Assembly: GCA_021234155.1 (NCBI GenBank)
Contig: JAJEKV010000042.1
Coordinates: 1,675,257-1,739,256 of the forward strand
Direction: 5' to 3'
Length of the DNA stretch: 64,000 bases
DNA from: Isoetes taiwanensis
Taxonomy: Eukaryota; Streptophyta; Lycopodiopsida; Isoetales; Isoetaceae
This document shows, in pieces, positions 6,291 to 51,245 of this stretch. Position 1 is the stretch's first letter. The number at the start of each line of letters is the position of its first letter. A program made the translations under genes and the position numbers. A model generated the notes under the pieces. That model ran no database searches. It was not told the origin of the DNA and saw only the letters and a program-made list of their open reading frames with translations.

Positions 6291-6292
6291 CA

Positions 6293-19137: not shown

Positions 19138-19230
19138 AAATTGGGCGCCCGCCCACTTTGCACTAGAATGGTTCCCCTTGAATGCGCATAGTGAATGGTA
19201 CGCGAAATTGGGCGGCCACCCAATTTCGCG
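19138..19230 (+). repeat. two interrupted palindromes between paralogs B and C
   Basis: The first (19138-19159) is a near-consensus copy. The second has extended arms CGCGAAATTGGG and CCCAATTTCGCG (19201-19230), a 12-bp perfect inverted repeat. Confidence 0.75.
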
Positions 19231-19342
19231 TGGCTGTACAGGTATACCGTATACGGTCAATACTGGCGCTAGAATGTATGCCAATAATTGACATCAATAA
19301 TTTTTCACCACTATAAAAGCAGCTCCACTGCATTCATCTCTC

Positions 19343-19585
19343 ATGGCTTCCTTGCCGGATCGTCCGGAGAACATCCGATCCTTCAAGTGCTACTTGAGCT
19401 ACAACGATATTAACCAGTGCTATATGAATGGTGTTAGTCTTGATCCATGGCTCCAGTCCAAAGCAGATGGACCTGCGAGTGCTTGCAGGAAGCTCATTCG
19501 TGTTGTGGTCCACCTGTATTGGCTTCCTGATCAGCAGATCTTTGAGTTGAATGGCATCGCCTTGGCAGGCGTTGACGACGAGTGA
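19343..19585 (+). CDS. small paralog C of a three-member family, 80 aa
   Basis: ATG at 19343 follows a TATA box CTATAAAAG (19311-19319) by about 24 nt, a normal plant core promoter with a short leader. The protein reads MASLPDRPENIRSFKC, then YLSYNDINQC, GVSLDPWL, IRVVVHLYW and QQIFELNGIAL, aligning along its whole length with A and B. It is an intact frame with an acidic end (VDDE). No known domain is recognised. Its neighbours are paralog B upstream and the 3' end of the minus-strand methyltransferase-like gene downstream (convergent), with two palindromes in between. Confidence 0.7.
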   Translation: MASLPDRPENIRSFKCYLSYNDINQCYMNGVSLDPWLQSKADGPASACRKLIRVVVHLYWLPDQQIFELNGIALAGVDDE

Positions 19586-19771
19586 ATCGTTGTAGACTCG
19601 GATATAATAATGTACCTGACAAGGATATAATAATGTTGTAAGGATGTAATAAGCATAGTCAATATTATATAATGTAACGTACCTGAGTAATTCCTGAGGG
19701 TCTGCTCTTTCATCTCCACTGTTTCTGCACCTCCACTTCACTTCATGTTTGATGACGTTTACTCTGCTAGT

Positions 19772-19906
19772 AAATTGGGCGCACGCCCAATTTGTGGCCG
19801 AGGATAGCGAAGGTCTCAAGTTAACAGCAACAAGATTGGTCGTGAAATAAATTAAATTAAAGGTTTTAGTTTCTACGGGTAACCAAATTGGGCGCCCGCC
19901 CAATTT
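19772..19906 (+). repeat. two interrupted palindromes between convergent genes
   Basis: Copies at 19772-19793 and 19885-19906 have arms AAATTGGGCG and CGCCCAATTT. They lie between the 3' ends of paralog C and the minus-strand gene. Confidence 0.8.
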
Positions 19907-20940
19907 AGTTAGCAAAGTAAACTAGAGAATTTTAAGAGAAGGAAATGAGTGCAACGTTATCATTTCTGAAAAAGAAGTAATTACAAATGTTCATAACATA
20001 TTTCAAATATTTTGAAATCATAAATCGCTCATTCGTCTGGAGGCACCTCTTCTGAATGATCCTTGCTGGGTTCTTCATGCTGGGGCGGAGGTTGTTGTGC
20101 TGCCACTTTGATCTTTTCCATTCTTTGCCTAAAATCTTCGGCCCCCAGTTCCTCATTCTCCTCATCTGCACCCTGATTGTCTTCTGTGTTCGCGACCTCT
20201 TCCTCTACATCTTGACTGTTCAATGTGTTGGGGACCACATCCTCTCCATCCTGATTGTCCCCTTCCTGTGTTTCCATGACAACGACAGACTCAAGATCCC
20301 TAGCAACCTCTTCCTCGAACTTTGAGGTCGCCTCAATCATGTCCTGAGTATTCACCAGTGCCGTCCCTGCCAGTGCGTTGATGTTCTCTTTTCTTCTCCT
20401 AAATAGTTCCAAATCCTGAGAGCCAAGGCCGCTGCCTTTTTGAGCTCTACTTGAATGGAGCTCTTGTCCTGTCTGAGAATGGATTGCACTTCGTTTATGG
20501 TTGTAGAGGAGAACGGACAAGGTGTCTCGGGAGCAGGAAGCTGAGGCTGAGGAACATTTTTGGAAGTAGAGGCCTTCTTCTTTCCCTCTTTGATCTTTTC
20601 TAGTTCCCGAGCTCTTGATTTTTTCTCGTCTAACATGACATCGAGTTGCTCGAATATCTGTACAAGCTTAATTTCCAGCTTCTCGTCTGTCTCAAAAGAC
20701 AATGTTTTATAGCCCTCGCACACTGCAGCTCGGTTAAAAGCACCACCGGAAAAGAAGTCGAGAACAAGGCAACCTTCCAACATCAACTGTGACTAGATAG
20801 GTGCACGCCCTACTTTCCAACCGATTCTCGCACGAGTACTCCCTCCCCACTGGGCCGCACCCTTTGTCGCACCAAGGACGACATCTGACCAATAAGTCTG
20901 CGGGGAAAACAAATGTTAGAAACATTCATAGTCAACAACA

Positions 20941-20962
20941 AAATTGGGCGGGCGCCCAATTT
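20941..20962 (+). repeat. interrupted palindrome in an intron
   Basis: It has GG-spacer orientation and lies inside the 20898-20973 intron of the methyltransferase-like gene. Confidence 0.8.
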
Positions 20963-22119
20963 AAAATGCATACCTGCTGTACACTCATGATCAGGCAAAT
21001 TCTTTTCGATGTCCTGTTTTTCTCGTAAATGCTTGGGAAACTTAGCATATTGCTTTGGATGGTCGGAATTGGCGAAGCAAATATTTATTTCTGTCACGGA
21101 TGGCGAGCCAGCTGCGTCTCGGCAACATACATTAGCGGGACAAGACATTGCAACTCTCGAACTCTAGAGGTAGAAGAAGCGGTTCTTGCCGGGGTCTGGT
21201 AGGAACCAACCCAAACACTACCGCCACCGTCTATTGTCTTCATGGCGGATAGGCACTCATTGAGGCGGTCCGGGGTAATAAATATAGCTATCCAAGTAAA
21301 AGTCCGCCGGTCCACATCATCGGCCGAAATGGGTCAAGGAATTTTTCATAATCTTCCTTTGGCCATTTCTTTGTATATCCTCAAGTCGCATCCAATGAAG
21401 CGGCGTAAGTGTTTACCACGTCCACGCACAAACCTCGCAGACTAACGTGGAAACACTTGAACGGTTTGCCACCCTCCTCAACTGGCCCAAGAAGATATTC
21501 GTCTACTTTGCTGTAGAGGGACTCCGGAAAGCTTTCCTTCTCCATCTCTTTTGCGCCCTTACGCCCATCCAATCGACATCTGGCGGGCGAACATAAGCAT
21601 GAGATTCAGCTCTGTGAATATGGGATGAGCTTGCCTCAAGGCAGCCATGTCTTGAAAAGGAAGTTTCTTCACTTCCTTCATGTATCTGACAAGGGCCCGC
21701 TCCATTGTTCCAATCTTCTTCAGCTCTAAGGCTCTGACTTTCATGGTACGTCTCCTAGTATAATCCTTGCTTCCCTTCAGGAATGTGGTGCCATCCTTGA
21801 TCTCCTTCAGCAGCCTTTGCAGATCTAGAGGATGCATGGACTTTAATGGGCGACAGGAATTGTTGGTGAAAAGTCTAAGCCTATCTTTCACTTCAATTCT
21901 TTCTCCCTTCTCGTCCTTCAACCGGTCTTCGTAGAATAACTGGGCTACTTCGGTGCACATTGACCACGATTCGTTATCAAGATATACAAAGTAGTCGTAG
22001 TCACGCATAGTTGACTTTTTAATCGTTTGCAGCGCTATAGCTTTCCAATCCTGCATGACACAGAAGGCATTAGATAAGGCCCATACAAATCATCTTAATT
22101 TGCTTGCATTAGCAGTCCC

Positions 22120-22295
22120 AAATTGGGCGCCCGCCCAATTTCAGACCATCCGACACCGAAGTTTTTTCGTGGACCAATTTCCTGAACGGGTCGCAAATAG
22201 GGCGGGCGCCCAATTTGCACTCGTTCAGAGAAATTGGGCACCCGCCCAATTTGAAAAGAGTGTCAACAGTTTGAAATTAGGCGGGCGCCCAATTT
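22120..22295 (+). repeat. cluster of four interrupted palindromes in an intron
   Basis: Copies at 22120-22141, 22195-22216, 22231-22252 and 22274-22295 alternate between CC and GG spacers, that is, in orientation. All are inside one intron-like gap of the minus-strand gene. Confidence 0.8.
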
Positions 22296-23496
22296 AGAAG
22301 TGGTGGATAGCACGGACTGTCAGAAATAATGGTGATAGTGCACTCACAGAATAAGCTCCACCGACGGAGTGCCCGCGTTTGCCCTTTTTAGGCTTCCCAT
22401 AGAATGCCCACTGGTTTCGAAGCTGCTGAATTTCTTCGAAGAATACTTCTTCGTGTATAGTCTTCTTTGTTATGTCATTATTCTCCGGCCGACACCTAAC
22501 GTATTCGATTCTTTGGAGATTTCCTGCGGGACTCGCATTTCCTTTTGGCATAGAAAAGAATATCGGGCTTCTGCCAAGTGCTTCCTTTCAGGAGGCCATG
22601 CCAAAGCTTGTGTGACAAGCAGTTGAGCAACCGTGGTCGTATGGTTGCCATTTACAATCCAAAATTCTGCATTTTGCAGGTCCTCTGCCTTCTTCCACTT
22701 AATTGCTCGCCTCGCCTGCGTGGATCGAGCGGCGCGACATCAAGACGAGGGAGGGTGCATCCGATGGTCGATAAACGATTCGTAGAGAGTGTCCAAGTGC
22801 TCGGACTTATGACCCTACAAGTCATATTTGCGGGGCTTTATGCATCTTGAACACATCGACTTCAATCTCGAAGCCCACTCCCAGAGGGTAGATTCTCTCC
22901 CTGTGCTTGATGCTTGCTATGGCGCTCTGTGACAAATCATGTCTGCTCTCCTGTGTGACGTCGCCACCAAATGGAGTGAACTTCACGATCTGCCGGTTAG
23001 TCTCCCGTTCTTCAGACGAAGAAGCAGACAAAGACTCCCTCTCCGAACTATTTGGGCTCTGTGGTGAGATGTCCCGCTTGCGCCTCTTGGACGGACCACC
23101 TAAATCTTTTCCTCTGCGCTTAGAGGGTTCCTCTTCAGACGACTGTTCCTCTTCTGCACTCACCTGGAGTGACCTTGCTGTTCTCGACATTCCACCGAAT
23201 ACAAGTTTAGGGGCAGCTTTACGGGGAATAGCTGTAGCAGGTGTCCTCGCCTTCTTTGCTGCTGTCTCAGTCTCCATGGGCGCTGGCGCCTGCGCTTGTG
23301 CTGTCTCACTCTTCTTGTATCTAGACTTAAGCCACTTACTATCGTATACTTTAGGTTGGTTTTTGCCACGATACTCGTGAGCGATTGCTTTCGACCTGCT
23401 CGCATTTGTGTTCTAATATCCATCACCGACAACAGTAGTAGCCATCCAAGATATCAGTTCTTGATTTGATGTCCGAGCGCTCTAAATTTTCATATG

Positions 23497-23940
23497 AGTC
23501 TAGCGCCCATCCTTTATGAGCGCAAGAATGTGGGCTTTCCTTTATACTTGCGTTCATCATACATGGCTCGTATTTAGAAAGTGGAACTTTATAACGGATT
23601 TAAAGTCCGATCTCACGGTGTCTTCAACATCGATGAGGAAGTCATCGTTGTTCGGCGAGACCTCCATGTCGATGACGATACCCGCCGAAGTTCATTTTTC
23701 CGTCCCTCTCTTGCCAAAGAAAAGCAAAAGATCCTTGAGGTGGTTTGTCCGGAACCCGGGATGAATATTGCCTATCTCTATGCACGGACCCATTCCTCAA
23801 AGAACCGTCAAAACTTCATGGGGCACTACGGATGCCAAAGAAACAGTTCTTTCTCTTCTTCTGTTCTTGCATCCTCTCTTGCACTCTGCAAATTTGGGTG
23901 CGGGACCGGGAACCCGAGCAGTCTGCTTTGTTCGCGCCAT
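23497..23940 (-). CDS. small protein with histone H3 N-terminal tail, copy 1
   Basis: The ATG at 23940 in a good initiation context (ATT-ATG-GCG) gives MARTKQTAR, identical to residues 1-8 of mature histone H3 plus Met, then VPGPAPKF instead of KSTGGKAPR, then a basic stretch CKNRRRER. The first frame stops at 23797. Comparison with copy 2 shows the protein should continue in another frame (VVPHEVLTVAEEWVW…), so a frameshift sits at the CAG-rich site near 23890-23860. The rest has no recognised domain. The promoter side carries the palindrome array at 23.98-24.4 kb. The methyltransferase-like gene follows on the same strand. Confidence 0.55.
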
Positions 23941-23978
23941 AATAATTCCTGCAGAACGGAAAGTAGTGTTAGTACTTG

Positions 23979-24400
23979 GGAGACTTGGGGCTGAAGAGAC
24001 GGTTGTATCATAGAGGCCAAATTGGGCGCCCGCCCAATTTGGCCGGATCCCTACGCACACCAAATTGGGCGCCCGCCCAATTTACTCCGGCTCAACTCAT
24101 GGTGAGACTTGGGGCTGAGGAGACGTTGCATCATAGAGGCCAAATTGGGCGCCCGCCCAATTTGGTGGATCCCACAAGACACCAAATTGGGCCACCAATT
24201 TACTCCCGCCTCAACTCATGGTGAGACTTGGGGCTGAGGAGACGGTTGCATCATAGAGGCCAATTGGGCGCTGGCCCAATTTGGTGGGATCTTCACACAC
24301 CAAATTTGGCGCCCGCCCAATTTACTCCTGCCCAAGTCTACCATCCAAGGAAGTCGCGGTTGTCGGGATGAGTAAATTGGGGCCCCACCAATTTGGTGTG
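23979..24400 (+). repeat. tandem array of about 120-bp units with paired palindromes, copy 1
   Basis: GAGACTTGGGGCTGA recurs at 23979, 24103 and 24222. Each unit carries two palindromes, for example 24019-24040 (arms extended to GGCCAAATTGGGCG, 14 bp), 24062-24083 and 24142-24163, with degraded ones near 24182, 24262, 24301 and 24373. The array lies upstream of the H3-tail-like gene (minus). Confidence 0.85.
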
Positions 24401-24946
24401 AGGGAGAAGTTCTTTCATCGCCTTGAGAGTGTAGTTAAGATACCCCTCATGATGGAAGGGTAGCCTCTTTGGAGAAAAAGGCCAATGTTGTGCAAAATGA
24501 AAGCCCCTCAGGGAAGCAATTGGGTGCCCTATGAAGTTCTGCACACAGGTATGCATTTGTGGGGACCAGTGAGGCATCTAGAAGATGTTAATTTGTCAGC
24601 CACAGCCCAATTTCCTCTAAGCAAAAGTGGGATACTCAATCAGGCAGGCGCTCAAGTTTATATTAAGATAGTAGTCCAGCTTACCTTTGCCTCCTGTGGT
24701 GGGGCGAGATGCCATCAACTGCTAAGATTCCTTGGTGTACAGGGGTTCCCAGGCGATAGGACAATGAACAGAGGAAGGCGCCAACAGGATGGCGACAAGC
24801 GGCCGAGAAACACAAGGCGCCAAGTGCTCGATCCGAAGCCGACAGCTGGTTCGGGAGTATAGTGCGGCGACAGGATAGGGATGAGAATGACTTTCGTGGG
24901 TAAAAAATATGAAGGCGACAGTGTTAAGCGGGAGGAGTAAAGCCAA
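24338..24946 (-). other. possible small minus-strand gene(s), copy 1
   Basis: Two short open frames exist (24577-24338, MPHWSPQMHTCVQN…, 79 codons, and 24946-24722). Between them, at about 24703, an ATG reads MASRPTTGGK before GTAAGC, a good splice donor. All are kept in copy 2. The opposite strand is also open (24485-24862), so which strand codes is not clear. No domain recognised. Confidence 0.25.
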
Positions 24947-24949
24947 AGA

Positions 24950-26000
24950 AGCTACCGCAATTTTCTAAAAACTGCAATGAGGAGAATGAGGGGCTTTTAA
25001 AGGGTTATGGACCTTTCATGAGCGAAGACAAGTGTCGTGCATGAGAGTTTGCCCTTCAAATAAAATGGACCGTTGATGGGTTCGGAGTGGGGAATTAATT
25101 GTGGACCTTATTAATAATTGCACGGAGATTTAAATTTCAAATCCGGTCATTTAAAGCCCGCCCAAATTTAATTGAGTCATGCACGTGTCGCACGTGTTTT
25201 AGGCGGAAGTTGTGTTTAAAAGTTCCGCCAGGACATATTACTTCGAAAATTAGAAGGGACATTTAACTTTCAAAATAGGGGAAATTACATTCAAATTTTG
25301 AGGGGAATTTGTGTTTAAATGTAAATGCGCTTCAAACCTCGTTGTCTTTCTCGCACCGCTGCTCGTTTGGCTACTATCTTTTCTTCAAGACATAAAACAT
25401 CTTCAGCATTCATACTCATGGCCACGAAATCTCCAAAGGTTTGTCTTTGCTCCTCGTTTTATTCGCCATAGCTCGATGTGTAATTGTTGCAAATGTAATC
25501 CCAGAAGGGATGTAATCATTCACGCCTTTCCATTCCGGCCGTTTCATTCGCACCTCTTCAAGCACGCCTGTTCATTCACACCTCTTCATTCACTTTGTTC
25601 ATTCACACCTCTTCATTCACGCCTTTTCGATGGCGCCTGTTGATTTACTCCTCATCATTCACCGGGGTGGTAGTTCGGTCACATTTTTGAAGTTTGGACT
25701 TCGACAGCTATTGTCACATTAAAATTGGTGTGCAGGAATTGTGTGCTCTCTTTGTTTTTCTCCATGCTCGTTTGTTTGCCCCCAGTCCACCCTTGTTTGT
25801 AGTCAGGTCCTTCCAATACTCGATTGTATTTGTTTTGGTAGGTCAATGATAAATTCCACTTAGGTGTGCAGTCCAACCCTCCCCCTTTCAATCGAAGGGG
25901 GTTCTTTTAGTGTCTGCCTCCTTCAGTTTCATCTACAGAAAGGGACAAATTGGGCGGTCGGCCAGATTATCCCTTTGTGTAGATGACCAGATAGGTGAAA
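24950..26000. other. spacer with simple repeats
   Basis: There is no supported gene. Tandem TTCATTCACACCTC / TTCATTCACGCCTG units lie at about 25506-25625. The same block recurs at 46612-46728 in the second copy. Confidence 0.5.
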
Positions 26001-26007
26001 CTGGGCG

Positions 26008-26520
26008 GGTATCTCAAGTTGTGCCTATTGTGCCTATTCTCAAGTTGTCACTCGAATGTGTTTTCTCTATATTGACTAAATTGGGCGGTAGAGTCTTCGC
26101 CTACTTTTTCTTTCTTCTACAACCACGACCAAATTGGGCGGGCGCCCAATTTGTACGCGGACATGGCCTGTTCAGAGCGAGAACCTTTTTTTGTACCCAT
26201 TGTGAGGCTGACTGCATCAATACTAACCTTATATAAGCGCCTCATTCGGTTCAAGTATCTCAAGTTGTGCCTATTGTGCCTATTCTCAAGTTGTCACTCG
26301 AATGTGTCTTCTCTATGGCAGCTAAATTGGGTGGGCGCCGAGTCTCTGCCTTCTTTACAGTTCTTCTACAACCACGACCAAATTGGGCGCCCAATTTGTC
26401 CGCGGTCATGGCCTGTTCAGAGCGAGAACCTTTGTTTGTACCCATTGTGAGACTGACTGCATCAATACTAACCTTATATAAGCGCCTCATTCGGTTCAAA
26501 TTGGGCGGCCGCCCAATTTG
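26008..26520 (+). promoter_or_regulatory. duplicated promoter-like module of about 245 bp, copy 1
   Basis: ATCTCAAGTTGTGCCTATTG recurs at about 26012 and 26258. Each unit holds internal palindromes (26131-26152; 26381 onward) and ends with CTTATATAAGCGCCTCATTC, a TATA box at about 26229 and 26473. The second unit ends in a perfect palindrome CAAATTGGGCGG/CCGCCCAATTTG (about 26497-26520) directly before the DUF7869-like gene, so this is probably that gene's promoter. Confidence 0.55.
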
Positions 26521-29500
26521 CAACAAGGGGGATCTAAAGACCTCATAGGTAAAAAAGGGCACCCGCCCAATTTCATTGTCCGTGTAACCATTGAATGGCC
26601 ATCCCCCCATGTCCTTTGCATTGCTTTCTCGTCTTCCTTACTCGATTTTAACACTACTGAAATCCTTGTGCAGGTTGTGTATCTCTTCCTTAATAAACAT
26701 CTAGTAGCAAAGGGAGTTGTGGGGCAAATGACACAATGCCACTTCAAGGAGATATTGAATGGAGTAGTGAGCGTAGGTGTGGAGGAAGTGTTCGAAGGCC
26801 ACCATACCCTTCCTTGGCCAACTCCAAATGCAAACACAATAGCAGAAGCCAGGGGCTCATTCGTTCTCTGGAGAAGTGAAGATGCTCGTGAGTCGTCTGC
26901 TAATGACGTCCCCAGCAAAAGACAGCGGACAAAGGTGGGAAAGGAGACCCGCTGACAAGATATACCCTTCTTGAAAAGGATTGTGAGATATGGCACTCCT
27001 GCGACTCCATTATCGCCGGAAAGGGATTCATATTTTCACCGCCCCGATGATGCGCTTTTGTGACCGGTTGGTTTCAAGTTTGTGGGAGTATTCAGAATCG
27101 AAGGTTTCCCTTCCCTTTCTGAAGTGAACATCCGTTGCCAAGGTTGCTTGGTTTGCCGCGAAAGGGATGCTCGTGAGATGGAGCAATGACCTCGTCCATG
27201 TTGATGGAGTAAAGGTCTCGGAGATATTGACCGCAACACCGCAACAGGAAGCAGATATTGTGTCCAGCCAGGGGAGCTCAGAGCATCAGAAGCACCCAAA
27301 TTATGAGAAACGACATTACACTTTTCATTCCCGACAGCCCAGGAAGGTTGTAAGGCCACCAAAGCTTGCTCGTCTCACCACTCAGAATGCTATCCTCGCC
27401 TGGGAGGACCTTGTGTTGCAAGAATAGGTGTTGCGCCAAGTTCTCTACGAATCAAGTTGTTAGCATGCTTAAAGGAATTCCTTGCCATGAAATCAAGTGA
27501 TAGGGTTACTTTTGTTTATGACATGTTCGCCAACAACATGAAAGGTCAAGAGTGGGGGACGACTAGTGCCGCAAGGGAATCTCGCTTTTGCGAAAAGGGC
27601 GTGGTACCTTGGTCTCGGGATCTCAAAGTCGGCGTGATCTGAAATGGAAGGCCCAATTTCTTGAGGGTGCACGCAAGGTCAACATGATAACCGTGGCACC
27701 TTGAAGCCTCGCCTCGACGCTGGCATGTGAGGCCGTGTTTTCCATGTTTGTGAGGGAGAACGGTGAATCCTTGCCCCACCGCAGCAGGAGAAACGAGGAG
27801 GGGATAAGAGAGAACGCCGTGAAGTTGCCTCGCAATGTTTACTTAAGTCCAAAGATTCTAGAAGAGGTTAATGCAGAGGTTGTGGCATTGATCGGCAAGA
27901 AGGTATCACCGATGTGTTTTCATAGAACGTGGAGGCGGAGCTTCAGGGATGTCTTAAAAGATCGCGAAAGAAAATTGCATTCTCCAAATGCGATACATGT
28001 GAGATGATCCGCATAAAGTTATCAAGACCAAAGATGAAGGAGAGAGGAGGATGCCGCATGATGAAAGAAGAGCGATAGATCGGAGCAGCCTCGTGGTCGC
28101 ATTACAAGATCGGGTCGTGGAGATTATACTCCCATGTGTATCCCGCCAATATCTTTGTATTATTCACGACAAAATGGATCAAGCGAAAACAATGATTCCA
28201 AAATTGCAACAATCTATGAAGTCTCTCTGGAGACTTGACAAGCTCAAAACTACATTGACTGGTGCATTGACTCATGGTCATGGAAATGGATCCTATGGAA
28301 ATTTTGCCCTGGACTTATGGCCAGATGACTCTAACTTCCATGTAGGTTCTTTGAATAGCATCTTGAAGAGATTAGAGATGGGGCACGAGTATGCAGGAGG
28401 CCACCTGTCAGTGCCTGAATCATCTGCTCCAAAATGGGTGTCCTCCTTGCGAGACACCACGGCCTTGGGGTCAAAGTTGTCACTATCCAATAACAGCATA
28501 CCTGCTAATTTGCCACAGGCTGAGGGATCATCATTGAAGCCTCTGCCCAAGATACTTTATTTGCAGCTGGACAATGCATCTGGACAGAACAAGAATAGGT
28601 ATGTCTTCTCCTATCTTTCTTACCTAGTATATCTTGGTGTGTTTGAAGAGATTGAGCTAGGGTTCATGATGCCCGGTCATACACATGATGATATCGATGC
28701 CTTGTTTGGTAACTTCTCTACATCTTTAAAGAAGGCTGAGGTGCTCACAATGCCAGAACTACTGTATGAATTCCACAAATGCAACTTGAATACACCTGTG
28801 CCCTATGTTGTTGACAAAGTTCCGGATTGGAAGGGTTTTATAGAAGGCTACATACCAGATGGGGATGATAGATTGACAGGTCATACCACCCCTCTAACTT
28901 TCAGATTCGCTATGAATGGTGATTGGCCAGTCATGTATTACAAAACTCGACCCACTTACTTGGATTGGTTGCCTGCTGGTGGAATAAAGATGTGGAAAGA
29001 AAAAGAGGACGGGAAGCCCATGATGCCAGTTGGATATCCTAAGCTGCTTCCTCCCAAGAAATCGGTGAAGGACCTTGGCCTCCTGCGAAACAGTATCCAC
29101 AAGCATATATTGCATTGGGTTGCTTGTTCAACTAGTAACAAGGGAGTGCGAATTTTTAGAGGGTTTTTTTTGGAAGGGTTTAGAGCGTTTTTTAGATTGT
29201 CACATCAAATTTTGCTTTTGCCATTGGTGTAGAAGATGCAATTGAAGACTCCATACTATAGAAAATAACACTGCATTAAAGTTATGTAGAAGTAGTTTAA
29301 AGTAAACTATGGAAGACAAAATACTATAATCCATGTTATGAAAACCTAGACGACATGAAGTCCTCATCCTTCTTCACACTCGTCATCTACAAGTACACAA
29401 CGCCTACGTCTTCTTTCCTTATGAACTGGAGATTCCCTTTTTGACAAAACTGAAGCCATTGATTCTGCATACACAGGAAGAATGCTAATACGTTAAAAAG

Positions 29501-29555
29501 GATAAGTAGTACTACCATAATTGCTAAATATTTACAAAGAGAAATAATCAACGTA

Positions 29556-32552
29556 CTATGAAGGTTCTTCATCTTCCTCTGCCAGTTCGTCATCTGAATC
29601 CTCGGAAAGCTCGTAATTCTTCTCATCATACTTTTTTAAACCACTTGCAAGGGCTGAAAGACGAGATGCATTTACATGTTCCACTAACATTCTATCATTG
29701 TCTAACCCATAGCAATGACGAGATAAAACAGCAGATGCTACTATTGCTGAACCCGTTCCACTAAGCAAGTCCAATACAAGGCCTTCTCTTGGACTAAAAT
29801 TCTCAATAATGAACTCCATGAACGAAATAGACTTCTCGGTGGATTTCCTACCTGTGGTAGTAGGGCTTGCAGTAAGCTTACTGCCGTCCATAAAGAAATG
29901 AGCAAGTGATTGCTTAGAGAGTGTTAGACGTTTGTCTGAAATGGACAAATATTAATAAAACATAAAATGAGATATATTAAAATTAAGAAACACATGAAAT
30001 CAATATACATGAGATACGATAGTTTAAAATAAGATAGATAAAAAAAGAAAATCACTTACTTGAGAAATGAACATTGTCTTGGATGCTTGGAGAGGTGCCC
30101 TTTCTAAATCAAACAGTTACAAGCAAGACATTGCTTGTAAACTTTCCAAATCTGTCCTTCATGTATCCAAAAGGTTCTTTCTGGTGCAAAAAGTAAGTTC
30201 TGAAGGTCTCCAAGCATTTTAATCTTGCCTCTTTCTCTACTGTCCTTGCTTGTTCAACCGAACAAATAGAAACCAACCAACCATCATCATCAAGGCATAA
30301 TGTCCCAAATGAGAAAGCTGCTTGAATTAAAGAAGTATTGCATACGTTCCATGGTGGAATCTCAAAAATACCTCAAAGGCATGTTATTTGTAGGGAAATC
30401 AATAATAACTAAGTCAAATCCCCAATCTCTGACATTACCACTTCTCTTATACTCATGTGGCTTCCTAGCATGCCTTTTTGCAAATTCTCTAACGTCTTGA
30501 AAAACTGGAGCATCGATCTTCTTTGAATATTGTTCATAGGCACGCAAAATGTCTCCACAATGCAATTCAAGCGAGGTGTTGGAGACCACCTTGGAAATGT
30601 CGAAAGGGTGGACATCTTCCTCAGCATCGGCTAAATCCAGATCGATTGTTGTACCAGCTGCCACACGTGTAACACGGTGTCACATGGTTGTAAGAAATCA
30701 ATACGTACATGAATGCAAAGAAATAATGATAATTATTTACCAGAAATTTCTTGTGACTTCTCTTGCTTTCTTCTCTTTCTTTTTAGATCTCCTTTATCAA
30801 GTGGATCATCCAAACTTGTTTTTGTCTTTCCAGGTGACTCCACTTTTCTTTTAAGAGCCGGAACTTTCACATTTGCCTTATACTCCTCCTCTTCACTTAA
30901 TGGATATTCTCCAATAGCGAAATCGATCCACCAGGGACAATTTTGAATCTCATAATCACTTAGACCACCTTGCCTATCCAAGTTCCCCTTTTTTGAGTAC
31001 ATGCAATTTTCATGTGTGGACTTCCAACATTCCAATTCAGTTGGCAGGTTTGCTAAAAGTTTCTCACTGATAAGGTGTTTGTAATATCTGCAAAATTGCA
31101 CAAAAAAATTAAATGTATTCACACGAATAAAAAACTGTAGAAACTCTATTACTTATACCTGTAGGCTACTCTTCTTGAACTTCTATCAATCTCATAAGAA
31201 GACGCCATAGCCACAGTTGCAGACATGTGTTTGTGATATGGCTTGAACATAGTGGCTCTATTCTTTAATTTGAAGGCTCGGAACCAACTTTCTAAGTCAC
31301 CACCATGTGGTACTTGAATCTGCAATTGATATGTTGCAGTAGTCTCACTGAATACTTCACTAGACTTCTCCACCAAATGCTCCAACCAAACTTCCTTTTT
31401 TATCCAATCTTTGAAGCTTTTATCACCCTTAGGAATCCCGTACGTACTATGGATCGCGGACCCAGATGACATCCAATGCACCCAACGATCTCTTACGTCA
31501 TTGGGTACCTTAGCCTTCACCATCTCGAGGAGCTTTTCAATTGACAATCTAGATGTTTTGGAGTCAAAATCAGCCCTAGTAACAGCATCTAACCAACTTG
31601 TCCCCAATGCAGGATTGACAATAGCAAGCATCTTTCCCATTTTTTGAACCCATTTATCTTGAACCCTTTTTGTTGCTGCTGTACGTAAGGCGTCTTTGTC
31701 ATCACCATCTTTTGCTGCAGCCAATTCAACCGCTATCTCTTTATCCATTTGCCTCTATTTAAATCAAATAGGTGGTGTGAGCACACAATTAAGGACACTA
31801 AATTCAAAAGGGTTACTAAACAGATATGGAGTGTAACCTGAAATAGTATCTTGCAGTAAGCCAAACGTGGTAGTTGATACCATTGTTCTGTACCAGTGCT
31901 TGAAGAAGCATTATCTTTTATCTTCAATGTAGCTAGGTATTGAGGATCCAATTTGGAAAAATATTGCTCTGGATTTGCTGTTGCAATTTTGTGGACACTA
32001 TATATTGTATCCTTCATTGTGTTATGCACAACACCATCCTCATTCAACCTGAAGGCAACATAAAAACAATAAACATAATTGAATAGTGTAACGGATCCAG
32101 AATATTCAATTCACTTACTCATTAACTCTATTGAGGGCCGATATGAGTTGTTGAACATGGCACTTCTCCACATCAATGAAAGACACTTCAACACGAATGT
32201 GCCTGCGCTTCTCATAACAGAATTGATGGTTGTAACGTATCTCCTCCATCCAACCTGCTGTTCTATGATTACCATCCCAACAAAGAAACATCTTGCCTGA
32301 TAAGTCCTTCCATTCCTCAGAATCTTCAAGTTCCTTCTCGAAGTCGTCGTTGACCTCATTCCAGTAATCATCCCATTTAGAGCGAATAGAGTCAGTAACC
32401 GGAACATCACATCCCTTAATGGATTTCATGGATAACACAAATTTCCCTTTCTCAACAAACAAAATAATCAAGGTATATCTACTTCGAATTAAACTACTAA
32501 CATGACATTTCAAATAAAAACTATGTTTACCGGTGTGTCTGGTGCCCTCCAT
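29556..32552 (-). CDS. ParB-like plus DNA amino-methyltransferase gene, multi-exon
   Basis: The likely first exon at 32552 (MEGTRHTG) precedes a GT donor. The next (about 32455-32115) carries MFLCWDGNHRTAGWMEEI, the DGNHR loop of ParB/sulfiredoxin-like domains. Further exons are about 32050-31840, 31756-31160 (helical linker), 31090-30740 (NLS-like KRKRRKQEK), 30664-30110 and 29938-29556. The methyltransferase reads LHCGDILRAYEQ, FDLVIIDFPTNN (motif IV position; DFPT instead of D/N/S-P-P-Y), DDDGWLVSICSVE, then FMEFIIENFS and GLVLDLLSGTGSAIVASAV (motif I) and YGLDND. Motif IV before motif I is the beta-class order of N6-adenine/N4-cytosine enzymes. One T-run frameshift lies near 30362. The acidic C-terminus ends DEEPS. 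Confidence 0.72.
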
Positions 32553-32599
32553 AACTATGCTATAACAGATAACCAGATGGTCGAAACCGAGCTAATTCC

Positions 32600-34570
32600 T
32601 GCAATATTTAAAGTACCAAAACAGGCTAGACAATGAAAAATACTTCCTATGCCTGCAGCTTTGAACATCAATGCAAAATCAATGCTTTGAACATCAATGA
32701 CATCCAATGCAAAACTGGATTTAATAAAAATGACAGAAGGTCAATGCTTAAACATAAACAGATAAACTGATAGATAAACTGATGTTCGATCTAAAAAACA
32801 TAAACAGATAGCTTGGCTTGCACAGAAAGGTGGAGGTGCGCCGCCGCACTAGGTCCAAAAGCACTAAAGAAAAATGGATTTGCACAAAAATTTTGGATTC
32901 AAACAAAAATTTGAACTGGAGTTATCTGTTTATGAGCAATCTGTTTATGTTTTCTGAGTTATCTGTTTATGAGCTATCTGTAAAACAAAATTTTTTTAAA
33001 GTAATTCAGAAAGAAAGCATATGACAGATCTATGCACCTGTAATGGCGATGTCTCTGGAGTCCGGATTGCACAAAATCTGTGAGGAGCGCCGCCGCACTA
33101 GCTCTGGAAGGGCCAGGTCCGGATGAAAAAGAATAGTGTTTTTGAAAGGAATGCCTTGTATTCTTCAAAGGAATGCATTTGTATTTCTTAAGAAAACAAG
33201 CTTAAGACATATCTATTACCTGTAAGAGCGATTTGTCTGCAGTCAGATTGCACAAAATCTTTGAGGAGCGCCGCCGCACTCGCTCTGGAAGGGCCAGTTA
33301 CGGATCACAAAGAACAGTGCTTTTTGAAAGGAATGCGTTGTATTTTTCAAAGGAATGCATTTGTATTTCTTAAGAAAACAAGCTTAAGACATATCTATTA
33401 CACCGGAACAAATGATTTGTCCGCAAATGATTATAAAAAAATGCGGTGGAGGAGCGCCAGCCAAGACTCGGCCTGGAAGGGCCAGTTCCGGATCACAAAG
33501 AACAGTGTTTTTGAAAGGAATGTGTTGTATTTTTCAAAGGAATGCATTCGTATTTGTTAAGAAAACAAGCTTAAGACATATCTATTACCTTGAACAGCGA
33601 TTTGTCTGCAGTCAGATTGCACAAAATCTGTGAGGAGCGCCGCCGCACTCGATCTGGAGAAGAAAAAGCAAAAGAAGAAGTAGAGAAAAAGTCAAAATCT
33701 GTTCTAGCGCTTGCCCACAGTCATTTCCGCTTGCCCACAGTCATTTCCGCTTGCCCAGAAACAATGAGGAGCGCCGCCGCACTACCTCCAAAAGTATCCG
33801 CCATTTCCCCCTGATCGTTCTTTTTTTAAACGATCTTCAACTTTTTTTCCAATTAAAAATCCAACGTAAAAGCCATGGACCCCATCGTTTTTCTTTTCGT
33901 TATTTTCTATGCCTCTATTCTATTGCCTCTATTCTACAAAAACTTACGTTTCCTTTCCCATCAAAGTCACGGATTTCCAAAATATAAAATATATCATATC
34001 TGTATGTGTTAATAAAACCCTCCACCGATTTTCGAGCCTTTGTTAAGGCCCATATTGACCATACTTGGTAATAAAACTTGGTAAAAGGAAAACGACACGC
34101 TATAGTCTATATTGGTCTACATCTCATTATGCTCAAATGTTGGCTAGTCCTGACAAATAAGAATATAACAGCAGTAGCTAAATCCTACATTTATGTACAA
34201 CATTTTGTTGCTTTTCACAAATACATGTTTTCTATTTGCAACATATGTCAAGAATGCCAAGTTATATTTTTTAACTTATCATTTTCTTAAAATGATAGAA
34301 CAATTTTAAAGGAAGCACAATTTTCTCGTTTTTGCAAATAAACGGACAATTCTATAACGTATATAATTAATGTCATAAAATTTCAACGGGCAAGAAATTA
34401 ATTATCTTACGAAATTGTAGTAGTGCATTTCGCCAATTATGATTATTCGTGGTCCAAATTTAATGTGCTAAGGGATTTTCTTGTATTACCATTCTAGTTA
34501 CGCAGAGGGTGTGTTGTCTGTGTTCGCAGAGGGTGTGTTGTCTGTGTAGCACAAATTTTTTCTTCAAGCA
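32600..34570. promoter_or_regulatory. divergent intergenic region of the Mutator-like element
   Basis: This lies between the starts of the methyltransferase gene (minus) and the transposase gene (plus). Four tandem units of about 183 bp (33035-33660) share GATTTGTCTGCAGTCAGATT, GAGGAGCGCCGCCGCACT and TCAAAGGAATGCATT. The GAGGAGCGCCGCCGCACT core recurs near 32833 and 33767. A 24-bp direct duplication CGCAGAGGGTGTGTTGTCTG lies just upstream of the transposase ATG (34502-34548). The open frames here are repeat-derived. Confidence 0.65.
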
Positions 34571-37554
34571 ATGGCTGAAAACGATTGTGAGATTCTTGCT
34601 TTCACTGCAAATGACGTGATAGTCACATCACCAGGTAAATGATTGAGAATGGTATGCGCTTTCGAGAATGGAGAATGTCAACTGTCGAGGAAATGGCTGT
34701 GTGATAGTTTTCAATTTCGTAGTGAAAAATTGTGTGTTGTGCAATCCACGAGTGGGAGAGGCAGGACGGTCCTCCTTGAAGAAGTTTTGAGTCAAGAGGG
34801 TGATAGTGTGTATGTGGCCCTATCATGTAATGGGAACTTTGTAACAGTCGAAGGCACTCCTATTCCCACTGAGGTCAGCACTCCTCATGCACCAATAATT
34901 GTTGATAGTCCGACCCAACATATTCTTGAGAGCAATGTAAACATTGTATCCACGTTTCGCATGAGTTGATAGTTTTGGATCAAGCAAATTGAAAAGATTG
35001 TGTTCATCCTGTTTTACGCACCAACATCGAAGATGTCTACCCTCCCATTACAATGGCAATGTAGTATTCGAGCTGCCTCCAAATGAATTGAGTTCTATGG
35101 CAGGCATGGAAAGAAAGGTCGATCCACATCTATGGACCAAACCCGAGAAGACAAGTCACTCATTCGATGGCATAGTTAAATATTCCAAGTGTTGTGGTCA
35201 TTTAAGGTGCATGAACTGACATGTGACTATTTTCTTTCTAGAAGTCTACCAAATGATGTCCAATTGGAAAGGAACTATGAAGCAACAACCCGCACTTGGC
35301 CCCATATCACGATCACATGGAGTGCTTGCTTGTGAATACTGTGAGGAACAGCCAACATGCCTGGCACTATGCAGTTGTGTGATATATTATGTTATACCAG
35401 ACGAAGCCACACATACAAGATTAGCCCTTCATGCTGGTACACATAACCATCCTATCAGGACTCCTCCAACTCGTGAAGAATTAAATTTGCTATACCAAAT
35501 GGTGAATAGTAGACTTAATGCTTCAATAGGAAGCAAAAAGGGGGCAAAACAGATACAGATGGAGGTAGCCATGGAGATCACTATCAACAACTTGTTGACA
35601 ACTACTGACTGTGATGACATACAGTTGTGGGGGAGAGATAGAATAGACAATCCAGGAGGAGACTTAGAAGACTCTTGGGTCCATTTTGACCACGTAAAAC
35701 GCACTGTTGGATGGACTACTTTAGCATGTCATGTGTACGACCCTAGGTTTATTTGTTTTCTTTCTACTTTTCAATGGCCATTTTAAAATATTAAAGCAAT
35801 CTTTGGAAATGTTCAGTATGCGTTGTCTTCTTACAATAGCAACATGTGATATGAAAACGGAGGACACGGAAGCTCAGATAAAGTTCTGGAATAAGCTAAA
35901 CAGAGTCATGGTACTAAAGAACTCAACACCTGCTCAGTTCAAAGGATTCATGGCAGACGAAGCTCAAGCTAATTGGAATGCCATTCGAGCTGTGTTCAAT
36001 GATGGCCAGCCCATGGAAGGAAAGGAACGTGGTTGTAAATTTCATTGGGAACAGTGTCTTCAAAGACACACAAATAAGTACATATCACAAGAACATAGAC
36101 AAGAGCATCTGAATTTGTGCAGGGCCTGGAGATCCGCACCCACTGCGGAAGATTTGAAGTTGCTTTTGTAATATTGTCAATTGGTGGTTCGGAAAAACTA
36201 GCCCTTCAGACATAAGTTCCTTAGGCTCATGGCTAGCATGGTGGCATCAAAGAGTGAGCAGATGGGGCAACTTTATGGAGGATGGAGTGAATCTAGCAAC
36301 TGCAGCTCAAATCCCTAACACCAATCTATCTGAATCTGTGCATGCCAGTTGGTTGGCATCAAGAGGGTATGTGAATAAATTATCCTTGTACGATCTGACA
36401 GAAGCTGTGTTGCAAAGTGCAAAGTGCAAAGCCCATAGAGAGCATAATTTTGTTGGAATAGGTCCAGGTATGGATACTTTGATGCTGAGAATGGGCACTT
36501 CAATGACTAGTAATGTTACCCCGATCGCTTGTGTCGGTAGCAGTTGAACTCGGCAGTAGTTTTACATAGTGGAATACGACCCATTCATGCTGGTTCAGGA
36601 GGAAATAATCAGACTATTCTAAAAAGGACCAGAGATAGCACAGAATATAGCAAGGATGTAGGTTCTGGTAGTCATCGTCCCGACAAGAGGGCCCATACTC
36701 GCTCTAGAGTTAGGGTAGATGCTTCAGCAAAACGGAATATAATTTTTGATGATGCTACATATCTTGTCTGAGGAGTATGATATGCCGCCAGGAGGATTGG
36801 ACTATCGGAAGAACAGAGCCCCGGTAGTAAAATAAGATGTCAAGGTAGAATCAAGTCCAATGGTCGAAGATGCAATTCTGAAATTAATAGGGTACGTACA
36901 TAATCCACTATTGCACCATGCTTCACTGGGCAAAGGAAAGCAAATGGTAGAGAGGTCACACAAAGGTTTTGGTTTTGTCCTCAAAATGTGCAGCATACCT
37001 ACTATCCAGTTGCGAGCATCATAGCCATACCTACTCGTCCAGCAGATTGGCCTGTGGCAAAGGGTGTGAATATCACTAGTGCAGAGTTGGAAACATTGGA
37101 GAAAGGAAACTTTTCTATTAGAGGGATTAATCCAAGGAGCTCAATTCCCAATGTGACTAGTGTGAATTCTCCCATCGTTAATGACTCTTCCCACTTCATG
37201 GAACGTTTTGGGAAGCGATGAGCAGGGCGAGGGAAGCTTTGTGTAGAAGCTGAAACAAAGCTTAATCAAGCTTTACAACTAGAGTGTGATATAGAGTCCA
37301 TAAAGGTCAATATCCACCACACGGATGTTGAGTACCAGGTGCGTCGACCAGATGAAACTTATACAGTAAGGGTCTGCAAGCATCCCACATGCACATGCCC
37401 GGATTTCATGGTCAGAGAGCTGAAAAGGGTATATATTCCGTGCAAACATCTGATGTACGTATTTGCGAAAGTCCTCAACCATGACCCTAGGTTTTTTTTG
37501 GACATCATTCAGCCTGTATTGACAGAGGATGTTCTACATAGGCTCCTTCCTTGA
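34571..37554 (+). pseudogene. Mutator-like transposase with SWIM finger, several breaks
   Basis: The first exon starts at 34571 (MAENDCEILAFTANDV) and ends at a GGTAAAT donor. A zinc-binding N-terminal block (YSKCCGHLRC…CEYC…) ends in ALHAGTHNHP, like FLYWCH/WRKY-GCM1 DNA-binding domains. The core follows with TIATCDMKTED and FKGFMADEAQANWNAIRA (about 35950-36000), ERGCKFHWEQCLQR, and after a frameshift near 36168 NIVNWWFGKTSPSD and NLSESVHASWLASRG. After a linker comes a complete SWIM zinc finger CTCPDFMV…YIPCKHLMYVF (37390-37470). The domain order fits Mutator-like transposases. The frame is broken at about 35220, 35790, 36168, 36830 and 37220, some of which may be introns. Confidence 0.75.
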
Positions 37555-38514
37555 GGAAGAACGACAGTTTTTTGTATGCACTTTTTCATATCAAATTCTA
37601 ATAGTTAATAGTGTGGCTGGTAACCTGCACTGTATATATTAGTGAATGTATGCAATACATATATTATTCAGTCCATTTTTCTTTAGCTATACGTTGACGC
37701 GTACAGAATTCATTCTGGTATATGTTCATGCTGATACATGTTACCAAAAAAATGGCAACTAGTACAACATGCCATAACAAAATATTCTAAGGAATATTCT
37801 CTTGTAAAACCCTCCAAGCCATCCACAAAAAAACCTTCCAAATAAAATTCCCCTAACAAGGGTGCTCCAGAAACAGCCAAGTACTCGGCACAGTTCACGT
37901 CCACGATTGAATATTGGATGAAACTCTTGCAAGAACTCGGGAACATCAGCAGTGACGAAGGCACTTATAATGACTTCTGGCCACGTACTAGGCAAGGGCG
38001 AGCTCCACCTCATGTAGCTGTAGTGGTGGAGCCAATTGCTACTATCACTCCTCCTTATGTCGGCCCCTGGAAGGACAAACCTGTACCGGAATTCAACCCA
38101 TACAAAGATTTGAAGAAAGGTATGTTTATAATGGCACGCCCTGATGATGTGATGTGCCCAACTTGGGTGGGCCTAGCTACTGAGGACCCACAAATGGATA
38201 ATAAGAAGGAGAACTTCGAGACTATTCTTGTGACTTGGTGGGAGCCAATCCCAGTGAGGAACCAAGTCTACCCAGCTAATTATGCCAATTGTTGGAAGAA
38301 GAGATGGAGGCCAACGACTGCAAGTGACCGCATAGAATTGGAGACTATCGACTACGCTTGGGAGCCATCAAACAAGAAGAAGATACCTAATACTATTAAG
38401 ATACCCGTGCATGCTGCTGAGGCATATGCAGCACTCGCAGGGGATGTCAACTAGTGTATGAAAATGAGTCATTCATGCAAGTGTACTAAAAAATGGTCCA
38501 TAAATTCAGGTATT

Positions 38515-38539
38515 GTCCATAATTAATGAAATTGTGCTT
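38515..38539 (-). repeat. right terminal inverted repeat of the large element, copy 1
   Basis: It is the inverse of 12720-12744 with two mismatches, followed by CAAA (38540-38543). Confidence 0.8.
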
Positions 38540-38543
38540 CAAA

Positions 38544-38829
38544 AGGCTTTTGGCTCAGTCATCAATAGATCAAACATGCGTTGATGATTTTCTGCGATGT
38601 AGCGATGCTTTTTGGATTTCAAGAATGCCTTATAGTCCCTAATGGCCTGTTGCTGAAGCTGTGGATCTAAGATGGTGCATAGCTGACTCTTTAGAGCCTT
38701 ACATTCAGCGTCAAACCAGGGGTTTTGAGGGAATTGCGCAGTGTCCCTTCGCGGGGGCTTTCTTGCTTCAAAGCATTCACTGGCTGCTGCGAGTAAGGCC
38801 TTCACCAACCATTCACACTTATAATGCAA
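38544..38829 (-). pseudogene. LINE fragment between endonuclease and RT, copy 1
   Basis: The minus-strand frame reads WLVKALLAAASECFEARK, QNPWFDAECKALKSQL, AIRDYKAFLKSKKHRYIAEN and ends FDLLMTEPKAF at the transposon edge. This is the linker between endonuclease and reverse transcriptase in plant LINEs. The continuation FWHRVLYKRHQ is at 12719 on the same strand, so both are one LINE split by the 12720-38539 insertion. Confidence 0.85.
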
Positions 38830-38849
38830 TGTATAGAGGGTATCAATTC

Positions 38850-39329
38850 CCCGGGGGGTTCACCTCTTTTTTCCGTACAAAACATGTGGCGGAGAAGGGT
38901 TTTTTTTTAGTTTTTGAAGTACGTATACTTAAGGTGTCCCCCACGTTTTGGCGCCGGAGCTGCTGTATTTCCACGGTTTGAGGAGCGGTTTTCCTGCAGG
39001 GGTATGCACTTAGAAATATGTTCAAGGGGGTTAGATGCTTTGCTGTTTGCCGGGCAGATACATTTAAGGGTCCTTGGATTTCCGGAGGTATGTTTCTAAT
39101 TTTTTTTCCCTGTACATTTTTTGCCTCAGAATACTTGTTTTTATAGTTTCTTATGAACGGATTAGAAGTACTTTCATCTCAAACACATAAGGCATTGTTG
39201 AGGATTAAATCTGTTTAGTCCACCTCCATTACCCTGGATAAATTTTGTTTTGTGGCTCAACCTTCCCGTGCCTCCATTTTGGCCGTTTCTACAAGTTTTT
39301 GGGTCTGGATATCGAAGATAAGGTTTCCA
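38850..39329. other. no supported gene
   Basis: This is the spacer between the LINE piece and the next gene. It carries possible further LINE sequence but no clear motif. Confidence 0.4.
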
Positions 39330-42067: not shown

Positions 42068-42353
42068 GACCGATGTTGTGGAAGAGAGCACGGAGCTGAA
42101 CATATATACAACTTTCCATCCAACTAAAACATATATACGATGTAAATCAAGAGACAAAATTTGTGAAACCATGTCATATATCATATTATATTATGTATTC
42201 ACAAAAAGGAACCGTCACAAGCTGCCCAAGCTTTTCAAAGATGATTCACAAAATAAAACACATCGGCCAAATGTTTTCGCTTGAGTTTACAACATAAGTT
42301 AAGGAGCCTTCGGATTTCATATACATAGCCGCGGAAAACAAAAACCTAGGATG

Positions 42354-42668
42354 CTAGTCGGACCAAGAAGCCACTAGGCGTGTCGGAGGAGGCATCTTCA
42401 GCTCCACATAGAGTTCATTGCCTTGAAAAAAAATTTCATCTCCAAAGTCACTCCTCATTGATATGAACCCGATCAACCAACCTTTGCACCTTTTCGAAAG
42501 GTAAGCTCCTAGTTCTCGCATGCGAGATACCTCGAACAAGAAAATCGAGCCACAATTTTCATTGTGGTGCCAGAACCTTGAGAATGGTCGAAACCCACGA
42601 TCCGCCCGCGCAGATCCGGACAGATTCATCCAAGTGGCTTTTGCTTTGGTGGTCTTGGTCCTCGCCAT
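42354..42668 (-). pseudogene. MARTKT small protein, copy 1 (frame-damaged)
   Basis: It starts at 42668 with MARTKTTKAKATWMNLSG and shares VSRMRELGAYLS and GNELYVELKMPPP with copy 2, but frame differences alter the middle. Every difference from copy 2 lies at or beside a CAG/CTG. It is convergent with the transposase-like gene. Confidence 0.5.
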
Positions 42669-43550
42669 TCCGAGAGCTTGAAAGAAGTAGAAGAAGTGGA
42701 AGCCGGATGGAAGAAGACGGATGTGTAGCTCGAAGGAAATGGAGATCAGAAGTTATATAGTTGCATGCCATAATGCCCGCCATAATGAAAAATCTTAAAA
42801 GACGTGCCACCCAATAATAAAATCTATAAACCCTATTAAGCCTAAGAAATTCATTCATACCCAATAATAAAATCTATAAACCCTATTAAGCCTAAGAAAT
42901 TCATTCATACTTAAATTCGGGATTTCCCAAGTGTGTTGGTTGGTGTTTCCTTTTTTTTTTTTGAGTGACCACCATTGAACTAAGAGGGACCATTGAACCA
43001 TTGAACCCTAAACCTTGAGTTAAACTATTGCCTTGAAATTTAAGCATGTTTGGATCAAGCATAGAATACTTAGAAGTTAATTGGGAGTAGATAATATAAA
43101 AATATTGATCTTATGGAACATATGCCTATAGTTCTTAGCCTTCATGTCAAGGAGCTCTACAGTCCTCTAGTCCTATGCAACCACTCTACAGGCACAAAAG
43201 AAATCCCAGATGTGCAATTTGGCTGAAATCAAGTTCAACTAATATGAATTTAGCATTGGTATGCAACCATCCTTGTGGAGCTTACAAAATTTGGAGGTTG
43301 AATGTAAATGTAAGGTAGAGGGTAGGCTACATTAGTGATATACTTGACGTAAAAATACGGTTAAGGGTAGGGTCAATGGGGATTGGACTAGGCGTAAATG
43401 TATGGAATCAAGTATTATTTTTCACCAACACCAGACTGTATACATAAAGGTTTCTATGGGGGGCGAGCCGTATACGGAGGGGTTTCTCCCGACCCCTGGA
43501 ACGCACATGCCATATCCCCTTTACATAGAGGTGAACCCCGGGATCAATTC
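42669..43550. other. spacer with a 50-bp tandem duplication
   Basis: ACCCAATAATAAAATCTATA begins two identical neighbouring 50-bp units at 42809 and 42859. There is no supported gene. The same sequence is found at 55520-55619. Confidence 0.6.
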
Positions 43551-43555
43551 CTCTG

Positions 43556-44589: not shown

Positions 44590-44591
44590 TT

Positions 44592-45038: not shown

Positions 45039-45076
45039 AATAATTCCTGCAGAACGGAAAGTAGTGTTAGTACTTG

Positions 45077-51241: not shown

Positions 51242-51245
51242 CAAA

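Follow-up and report, generated by a model that had tools for sequence, protein, structure and literature searches.

Genes that bear on DNA modification or silencing are carried by transposons of several kinds. According to excerpts of the published report, the motifs of VANC21 are mainly located in noncoding DNA, also in introns and often in tandem repeats, and are rare in other elements (PMC5735166). TET/JBP genes are carried by fungal DNA transposons in 11 lineages (PMC12730594), DNA methyltransferases (DNMTs) occur in retrotransposons of dinoflagellates and charophytes, and Dam-like enzymes in DIRS elements (PMC5890265), while transposons and some tandem repeats are the sites of action of the bdelloid enzyme N4CMT (PMC8885841), as stated in the parts of these papers drawn on here. 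A locus of the lycopod Isoetes taiwanensis is compared below with these systems. It lies in a window of 64,000 nucleotides (nt), the whole stretch of DNA analyzed (assembly GCA_021234155.1, contig JAJEKV010000042.1, positions 1,675,257 to 1,739,256), to which all coordinates refer. In this window, a DNA transposon (the inner transposon) is inserted into a larger, duplicated block (the outer block), and each of them is associated with a minus-strand gene, gene 1 in the outer block and gene 2 in the inner transposon, having a loop with the residues GNH near the N-terminus. Gene 2 is a well-supported predicted homologue of the beta-class DNA amino-methyltransferases, carried as internal cargo of a transposon bounded by a target-site duplication (TSD), and gene 1 may be a more decayed methyltransferase gene.

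The locus resembles the VANDAL/VANC system (PMC5735166) in having an element-borne gene and a short motif that is dense in noncoding DNA of the element itself, introns and tandem repeats included, but it differs in its methyltransferase homology and in its 22-bp inverted-repeat motif, and binding and anti-silencing are putative here. The TET/JBP-carrying fungal elements are, as described in the excerpts, likewise DNA transposons with a DNA-modification enzyme, although theirs are dioxygenases and not methyltransferases. The DNMT-carrying retrotransposons and DIRS elements likewise bear DNA methyltransferases, of the C5 or Dam-like type and in retrotransposons, whereas here the carrier is a DNA transposon and the homology is to beta-class N4/N6 enzymes. 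The bdelloid N4CMT is also an enzyme of the N6_N4_MTase family in a eukaryote; however, as reported, it is a host gene with a chromodomain and an SPPY motif, whereas gene 2 is transposon cargo with DFPT in this place. ParB-methyltransferase fusions of phages and bacteria (for example in Streptococcus phage Javan424) share the N-terminal GxH loop and the C-terminal beta-class methyltransferase, but the genes described here have no significant ParB match, a far longer linker and introns. Viral mimics of the histone H3 tail are proteins with a short H3-like stretch at one end, whereas here such a sequence is N-terminal in open reading frames (ORFs) of a transposon-like block, one of them possibly belonging to a methyltransferase gene. 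Among the papers listed by the literature search and in the excerpts covered, no beta-class amino-methyltransferase within a DNA transposon was found, histone mimics not being among the topics searched, and the word methyltransferase is absent from the main text of a survey of Mutator-like elements (MULEs) (PMC6446971).

The inner transposon and its methyltransferase homologue

The insertion can be read from an occupied and an empty copy of the same site. A unit of 12.7 kb is present twice, head to tail, between 23495 and 57299; copy 1 (23495..44589) carries the insertion and copy 2 (44591..57299) the empty site. The inner transposon (29145..37853; 8,709 bp) is located in the DUF7869 gene of copy 1, is missing from copy 2 (49576-57299), and is flanked by a 9-bp TSD, TAACAAGGG, on the left (29136..29144) and on the right (37854..37862). 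In copy 2, TAACAAGGG is single, forming a clean empty site across which the DUF7869 reading frame continues unbroken, while the DUF7869 ORF of copy 1 (28003..29232, plus strand; PF25273, 3e-43) enters the inner element past 29144. The nesting of two elements, proposed in a preliminary description of this DNA, is thus confirmed, with the inner element sitting in the DUF7869 gene of only one tandem copy.

The ends of the inner element form an imperfect, weak terminal inverted repeat (TIR) with 30/38 matching positions (blastn E 0.009 within the 600-bp ends). MULEs have TSDs of 8–11 bp according to the sections of the survey consulted (PMC6446971), a range that includes the 9-bp TAACAAGGG with its empty site. 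Some MULE families have no TIR, and a SWIM zinc finger is frequent in MULEs but not universal. Broken transposase-like frames on the plus strand (34643..37551) end in a SWIM-like C-terminus, the match being below threshold (E 0.029, 14.4 bits vs. a cut-off of 19.6; E 3 in the composite). A MULE transposase domain was absent from the Pfam results for the scanned ORFs and for a hand-joined composite of 487 aa, and since no such domain was assigned and the frames are broken, the element is not filed as a MULE. Thus, of the Mutator-like label given to it earlier, the 9-bp TSD, the weak TIR and the sub-threshold SWIM match speak in favor, but the missing MULE transposase domain speaks against it. 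We read the inner element as a DNA transposon whose target duplication resembles that of MULEs, a likeness that does not amount to class or membership.

Gene 2 (32429..29556, minus strand) lies wholly inside the inner element, antiparallel to the transposase-like frames, and is read in seven exons (32429-32119, 32048-31838, 31754-31159, 31087-30741, 30657-30372, 30317-30060 and 29935-29556) that encode an N-terminus with the GNH loop, a linker, a C-terminal region of methyltransferase homology and an acidic tail. Exons A to E join in frame and have GT-AG borders; between exons E and F, the frame is off by one base, with no repairing splice site seen by eye, and exon F contains an in-frame TGA. 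The motif X/I region (LDLLSGTGSA; 29559..29951, minus strand) matches Pfam family PF01555 and PHROGs 3008 and 498. The last exon alone matches PF01555 (N6_N4_Mtase) at 5.2e-7, with 30.3 bits vs. a cut-off of 26.7, and the joined gene matches it with 27.5 bits, together with the methyltransferase families PHROG 3008 (6.7e-9) and PHROG 498 (1.1e-8) and, weakly, one NCBIfam methyltransferase (E 0.0034, far under the cut-off). The motif IV region (30365..30679, minus strand), which reads IDFPTNN instead of DPPY/DIPY in an alignment with 9 phage methyltransferases, precedes motif I, as expected for a beta-class amino-methyltransferase.

Profile scans were performed on the 1,269 six-frame ORFs of at least 30 residues in the window, HMMER filters discarding most weak matches. 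With a methyltransferase profile built from 22 phage and bacterial sequences, gene 2 was first among these ORFs (45.8 bits). However, nine of the source loci of this profile were picked by similarity to gene 2 and the remainder via one of these nine, none being picked via gene 1, so that the first place of gene 2 is to some extent inherent in the profile, and the independent evidence is its Pfam match.

In searches of phage records, viral contigs and the PDB, the only relatives found for gene 2 were phage methyltransferases. A total of 185 phage records match it at E up to 1, none of them across 80% of its length, and the best 20 of the 185 are all within the methyltransferase part (best approximately 1e-3); the C-terminal part of gene 2 matches 737 phage records at E up to 10, and the N-terminal ORF of gene 2 and gene 1 gave only chance-level matches to phage records, with E 3 and above. 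In viral contigs, short peptide patterns brought up no confirmed relative, be it of gene 2, of DUF7869 or of the first 600 residues of gene 1, and a PDB search returned nothing significant for gene 2 or DUF7869. The two genes of the inner element are divergent, and the repeat scan located a tandem array of 182 bp x 3.5 between them (33008..33658). Five GC-rich sites GCGCCGCCGC occur in 32838-33780, 3/5 within this array and the others beside it, a modest signal given that shuffles average 1.4 near-matches with a maximum of 4.

The outer block and gene 1

The aligned parts of copies 1 and 2 of the 12.7-kb unit are 93.8%, 99.3% and 98.3% identical. In the right part of the unit, the copies differ by 89 mismatches and 30 indels, no indel being a multiple of 3, and 9/23 single-base indels of this part are in homopolymers; in the left part, there are 272 mismatches and 60 indels. 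Assembly errors may be the source of the frame breaks in genes 1 and 2. Since the units abut and no TSD is visible at their junctions, we regard them as a tandem duplication rather than as two separate insertions. The span 20029-23445, which had been presented as a large element, corresponds to a gene and not to an element, and the flank comparison detailed below did not yield outer termini. If gene 1 does start at 23940, the left border of the unit lies within the probable upstream part of this gene. This border, together with a repeat common to both, supports the view that the gene 1 region and the duplicated unit are parts of one element. In the left part of the window, a Ty3-like retrotransposon with reverse transcriptase, RNase H and integrase domains is present on the plus strand (5579-7603); together with the spliced genes, it indicates a eukaryotic genome.

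Gene 1 (20032..23412, minus strand) is degenerate, contains introns at 22347-22051 and 20973-20898, and has its probable start at 23940. Its motif-I ORF (LVLDFFSGG; 20355..20792, minus strand) is second among the 1,269 ORFs with the methyltransferase profile, a weak match of 6.6 bits (E 0.29). In hhalign comparisons, this ORF scored 36.9 (72%), followed by the exon of gene 2 that holds motif IV (20.8), and ORFs that belong to neither gene scored at most 20.5. Neither Pfam, NCBIfam nor PHROG assigned a methyltransferase family to the gene 1 composite, and the motif-I ORF had sub-threshold matches to the unrelated Pfam families PigL_N (0.0018) and MEIOC (0.0051), mostly downstream of the motif. 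The motif-I pattern is present in exactly 2/1,269 ORFs, those of genes 1 and 2, a description and not a test, as the pattern was made after the peptides had been seen. Acidic C-terminal tails are apparent by eye in both genes. Gene 1 may also encode a methyltransferase, in a more decayed state. The five peptides quoted in the preliminary description are all found, on the minus strand and in the order claimed; the methyltransferase that it attributed to both genes is firm for gene 2 (PF01555 and PHROGs) and weak for gene 1 (E 0.29 and no library match).

Inverted repeats and histone H3-like starts around gene 1

A field of 22-bp inverted repeats, AAATTGGGC-N4-GCCCAATTT, extends over 19138..27659, with 14 half-sites at 19.0–23.5 kb and, in unit 1, 20 in its left part, and the same field recurs in tandem copy 2 (45117..47664), with 21 half-sites in the corresponding left part. 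Across the window, we counted 58 instances of the half-site, as AAATTGGGC or its complement, against a mean of 1.13 and a maximum of 6 in first-order shuffles (n=100), and 55/58 are in the gene 1 neighborhood and the duplicated units. It is missing from the inner element, the right parts of the units, the region from 1 to 7.7 kb, which includes the Ty3-like retroelement, and the right flank. If one mismatch is tolerated in each arm, the half-sites form 27 inverted pairs, of which 24 have a 4-bp spacer. The two introns of gene 1 contain eight half-sites and its 3' flank six, with 20 on the upstream side, in the direction of DUF7869; the coding segments of gene 1 and the DUF7869 ORF have none. 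Thus, as with the VANC motifs, the repeat is concentrated, within the window, in the noncoding DNA of the outer block itself. The repeats are partly within local tandem repeats, and their 20-bp core was absent from the viral contigs searched. Three further half-sites are located apart from the main field, at 13705-13779, in a 33-bp tandem array.

The probable start of gene 1 encodes MARTKQTAR (23914..23940, minus strand), which, after Met, is identical to residues 1-8 of mature H3, and a second identical copy occurs at 45012..45038 (minus strand). The ATG at 23940 precedes the gene 1 ORF by approximately 0.5 kb, stands directly after a possible splice acceptor and probably belongs to gene 1. 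Another H3-like start, MARTKTT, opens a short ORF in the right part of the unit, as MARTKTTKA in copy 1 (42642..42668, minus strand) and as MARTKTTSK in copy 2 (55353..55379, minus strand). Among 2,886 ATGs on both strands, at least five matches to H3 residues 1-9 were seen at only these two loci, with two copies each (8/9 and 6/9); in 200 first-order shuffles, five matches appeared 22 times and six or more never. When no ATG was required, a six-residue H3 prefix was present in 1/60 shuffles and a five-residue prefix in 3/60. This comparison was made after the first H3-like start had been noticed. No match to a histone fold was obtained for the adjoining ORF of copy 2 or for the gene 1 composite.

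The N-terminal region and the ParB question

The loop of gene 2 (WDGNHRT) is in an ORF at 32118..32591 and that of gene 1 (VNGNHTT) in an ORF at 22473..22739, both on the minus strand; the N-termini of the two genes are 24% identical in a two-row alignment. The pattern [ND]GNH[RT] is present in exactly 2/1,269 ORFs, again those of genes 1 and 2, and, as with motif I, it was made after the peptides had been seen and serves as a description, not as a test. The likeness of the N-termini is weak but greater than that of shuffles, 17/500 of which score as high, while the middle parts of the genes do not stand out (52/500). An N-terminal domain common to genes 1 and 2, of unproven fold, is plausible.

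The preliminary description had claimed that this region is ParB-like in both genes. A profile of 23 ParB sequences gave no significant HMMER match among the 1,269 ORFs, and with hhalign over 376 queries, gene 2 was aligned at the expected place at noise level (rank 7/376) and gene 1 took rank 94. In a score-matrix test with two gap costs, ParB scores at least as high as that of gene 2 were obtained in 20 and 52/300 shuffles, and at least as high as that of gene 1 in 63 and 34/300. With a two-row profile, 26/200 column shuffles scored as high against ParB, and the best alignment was away from the loop. AlphaFold2 models, made for the gene 2 piece only, had a mean predicted local distance difference test (pLDDT) score of 33 for 32118-32591 (one row) and 44 for 32118-32429 (two rows), too low to be used in searches. 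The N-terminal pieces had weak matches to PHROGs of unknown function (E 0.017 and 0.0048). The identification of the N-termini as ParB is not supported by the libraries, the 23-sequence profile, the score matrix, the two-row profile or the AlphaFold2 models.

Possible role and alternative explanations

Starting from the observed insertion, the position of the cargo, the homology of gene 2, the distribution of the repeats and the H3-like starts, genes 1 and 2 may be seen as transposon-borne modules of self-marking or anti-silencing, with gene 1 probably a distant counterpart of gene 2 and with an H3-like tail in the outer element, a tentative reading that we regard as quite possible and still short of probable. 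In intact relatives, the N-terminal part would direct the protein to the noncoding repeats of its own element, which the methyltransferase domain would mark or occupy, while the H3-like tail of the outer element would engage or distract host readers of H3. The element might thereby escape or tune silencing, a service that VANDAL elements receive from their VANC proteins. Binding, marking, anti-silencing and past activity are what we infer, and a chromatin-directed role is made more plausible by the repeats around gene 1 and the H3-like N-termini. In its most elaborate form, an H3-tail mimic, a DNA-recognition domain and a bacterial-type amino-methyltransferase would together constitute a self-addressed writer of N4-methylcytosine or N6-methyladenine (4mC/6mA) on the 22-bp repeats that the element places in its own introns and flanks, drawing H3 readers to or from the element, with a related module in a second, unrelated transposon; this complete scheme is improbable.

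Several results weigh against a self-marking or anti-silencing role. An intact motif IV, (D/N/S)PP(Y/F/W), is required for activity, and that of gene 2 is DFPT, lacking the aromatic residue, in the alignment with nine phage enzymes in which motif I is well preserved. Moreover, N4CMT loses its activity when both catalytic residues of its motif IV, Ser and Tyr, are replaced (SPPY to APPA), as given in the excerpted report (PMC8885841), and thus this copy of gene 2 is probably inactive as an enzyme. The reading of gene 1, made partly by eye, contains six frame changes outside the introns and three in-frame stops. With these defects in gene 1, and a frameshift, a stop and DFPT in gene 2, both gene copies present here are probably dead, so that the self-marking of their own DNA by these copies, as previously suggested, is not borne out. 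Regarding gene 1, 20/126,900 shuffled ORFs reach its 6.6 bits, approximately 0.2 per window; with gene 2 added to the profile, its ORF arrives at just E 0.18 and rank 4, after three gene 2 ORFs; and the C-terminal parts of the two genes have no likeness beyond that of shuffles (152/500 as high). The first 33 residues from the MARTKQTAR start matched no histone, nor any other chain, in the PDB search, and the H3 likeness is therefore limited to the first eight residues. Since three half-sites stand at 13.7 kb, outside the main field, the 22-bp motif might be a repeat of the host that has gathered in the outer block. No inverted repeat was found between the flanks at 7.6–23.5 kb and 57–64 kb, which share just two 17-bp direct matches (E 0.84), and the termini of the outer element were not located in this comparison. 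Finally, a ParB or sulfiredoxin (Srx) domain was not assigned to either gene by Pfam or PHROGs (N-terminal pieces, E up to 10), by NCBIfam (joined genes, E up to 1) or by the 23-sequence ParB profile; as far as these searches reach, this is the outcome that the preliminary description had named as refuting this half of its proposal.

The disruption of both copies and the degenerate motif IV of gene 2 would also be expected if a methyltransferase gene of the host, or one acquired horizontally, had been passively captured as cargo without a selected function, gene 1 being a decayed gene from the same source. MULEs are described as gaining extra ORFs, in the portion of the survey consulted (PMC6446971). 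However, a similar gene order occurs in two blocks with different transposase-like genes, and gene 2, in which five exons still splice cleanly, is located entirely within its element, past an intergenic repeat array from the transposase, so that passive capture seems rather unlikely. Alternatively, the proteins could be accessory factors in DNA binding or transposition, whose methyltransferase domain would bind repeats without catalysis and without writing marks. DFPT in place of DPPY would be in line with this, given the loss of N4CMT activity upon the change from SPPY to APPA in the excerpted study (PMC8885841). Nevertheless, a single degenerate copy says little about its family, and motif I of gene 2 is well preserved, which leaves the accessory role unlikely.

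The doubts concerning gene 1 could be carried further, in that LDFFSGG might be a chance sequence in a decayed transposon ORF and the inner element the sole carrier of a methyltransferase gene. The E-value of 0.29, the lack of a library methyltransferase match and the frequency with which shuffles attain the score (about 0.2 per window) are in agreement with this possibility. However, the hhalign score of 36.9 compares with 20.8 for the best ORF beyond the two motif-I ORFs, and gene 1 shares with gene 2 the strand, the order of GNH loop and motif I and, as judged by eye, the acidic tail. A chance match in gene 1 is distinctly unlikely.

Significance

Known transposon cargo includes oxidases of 5-methylcytosine, C5 methyltransferases, Dam-like enzymes and anti-silencing factors. 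A cargo of beta-class N4/N6 enzymes, together with starts like the H3 tail, would give transposons further ways of writing or imitating epigenetic signals. Moreover, such cargo would point to transposons as a route for the entry of 4mC/6mA enzymes into eukaryotes.

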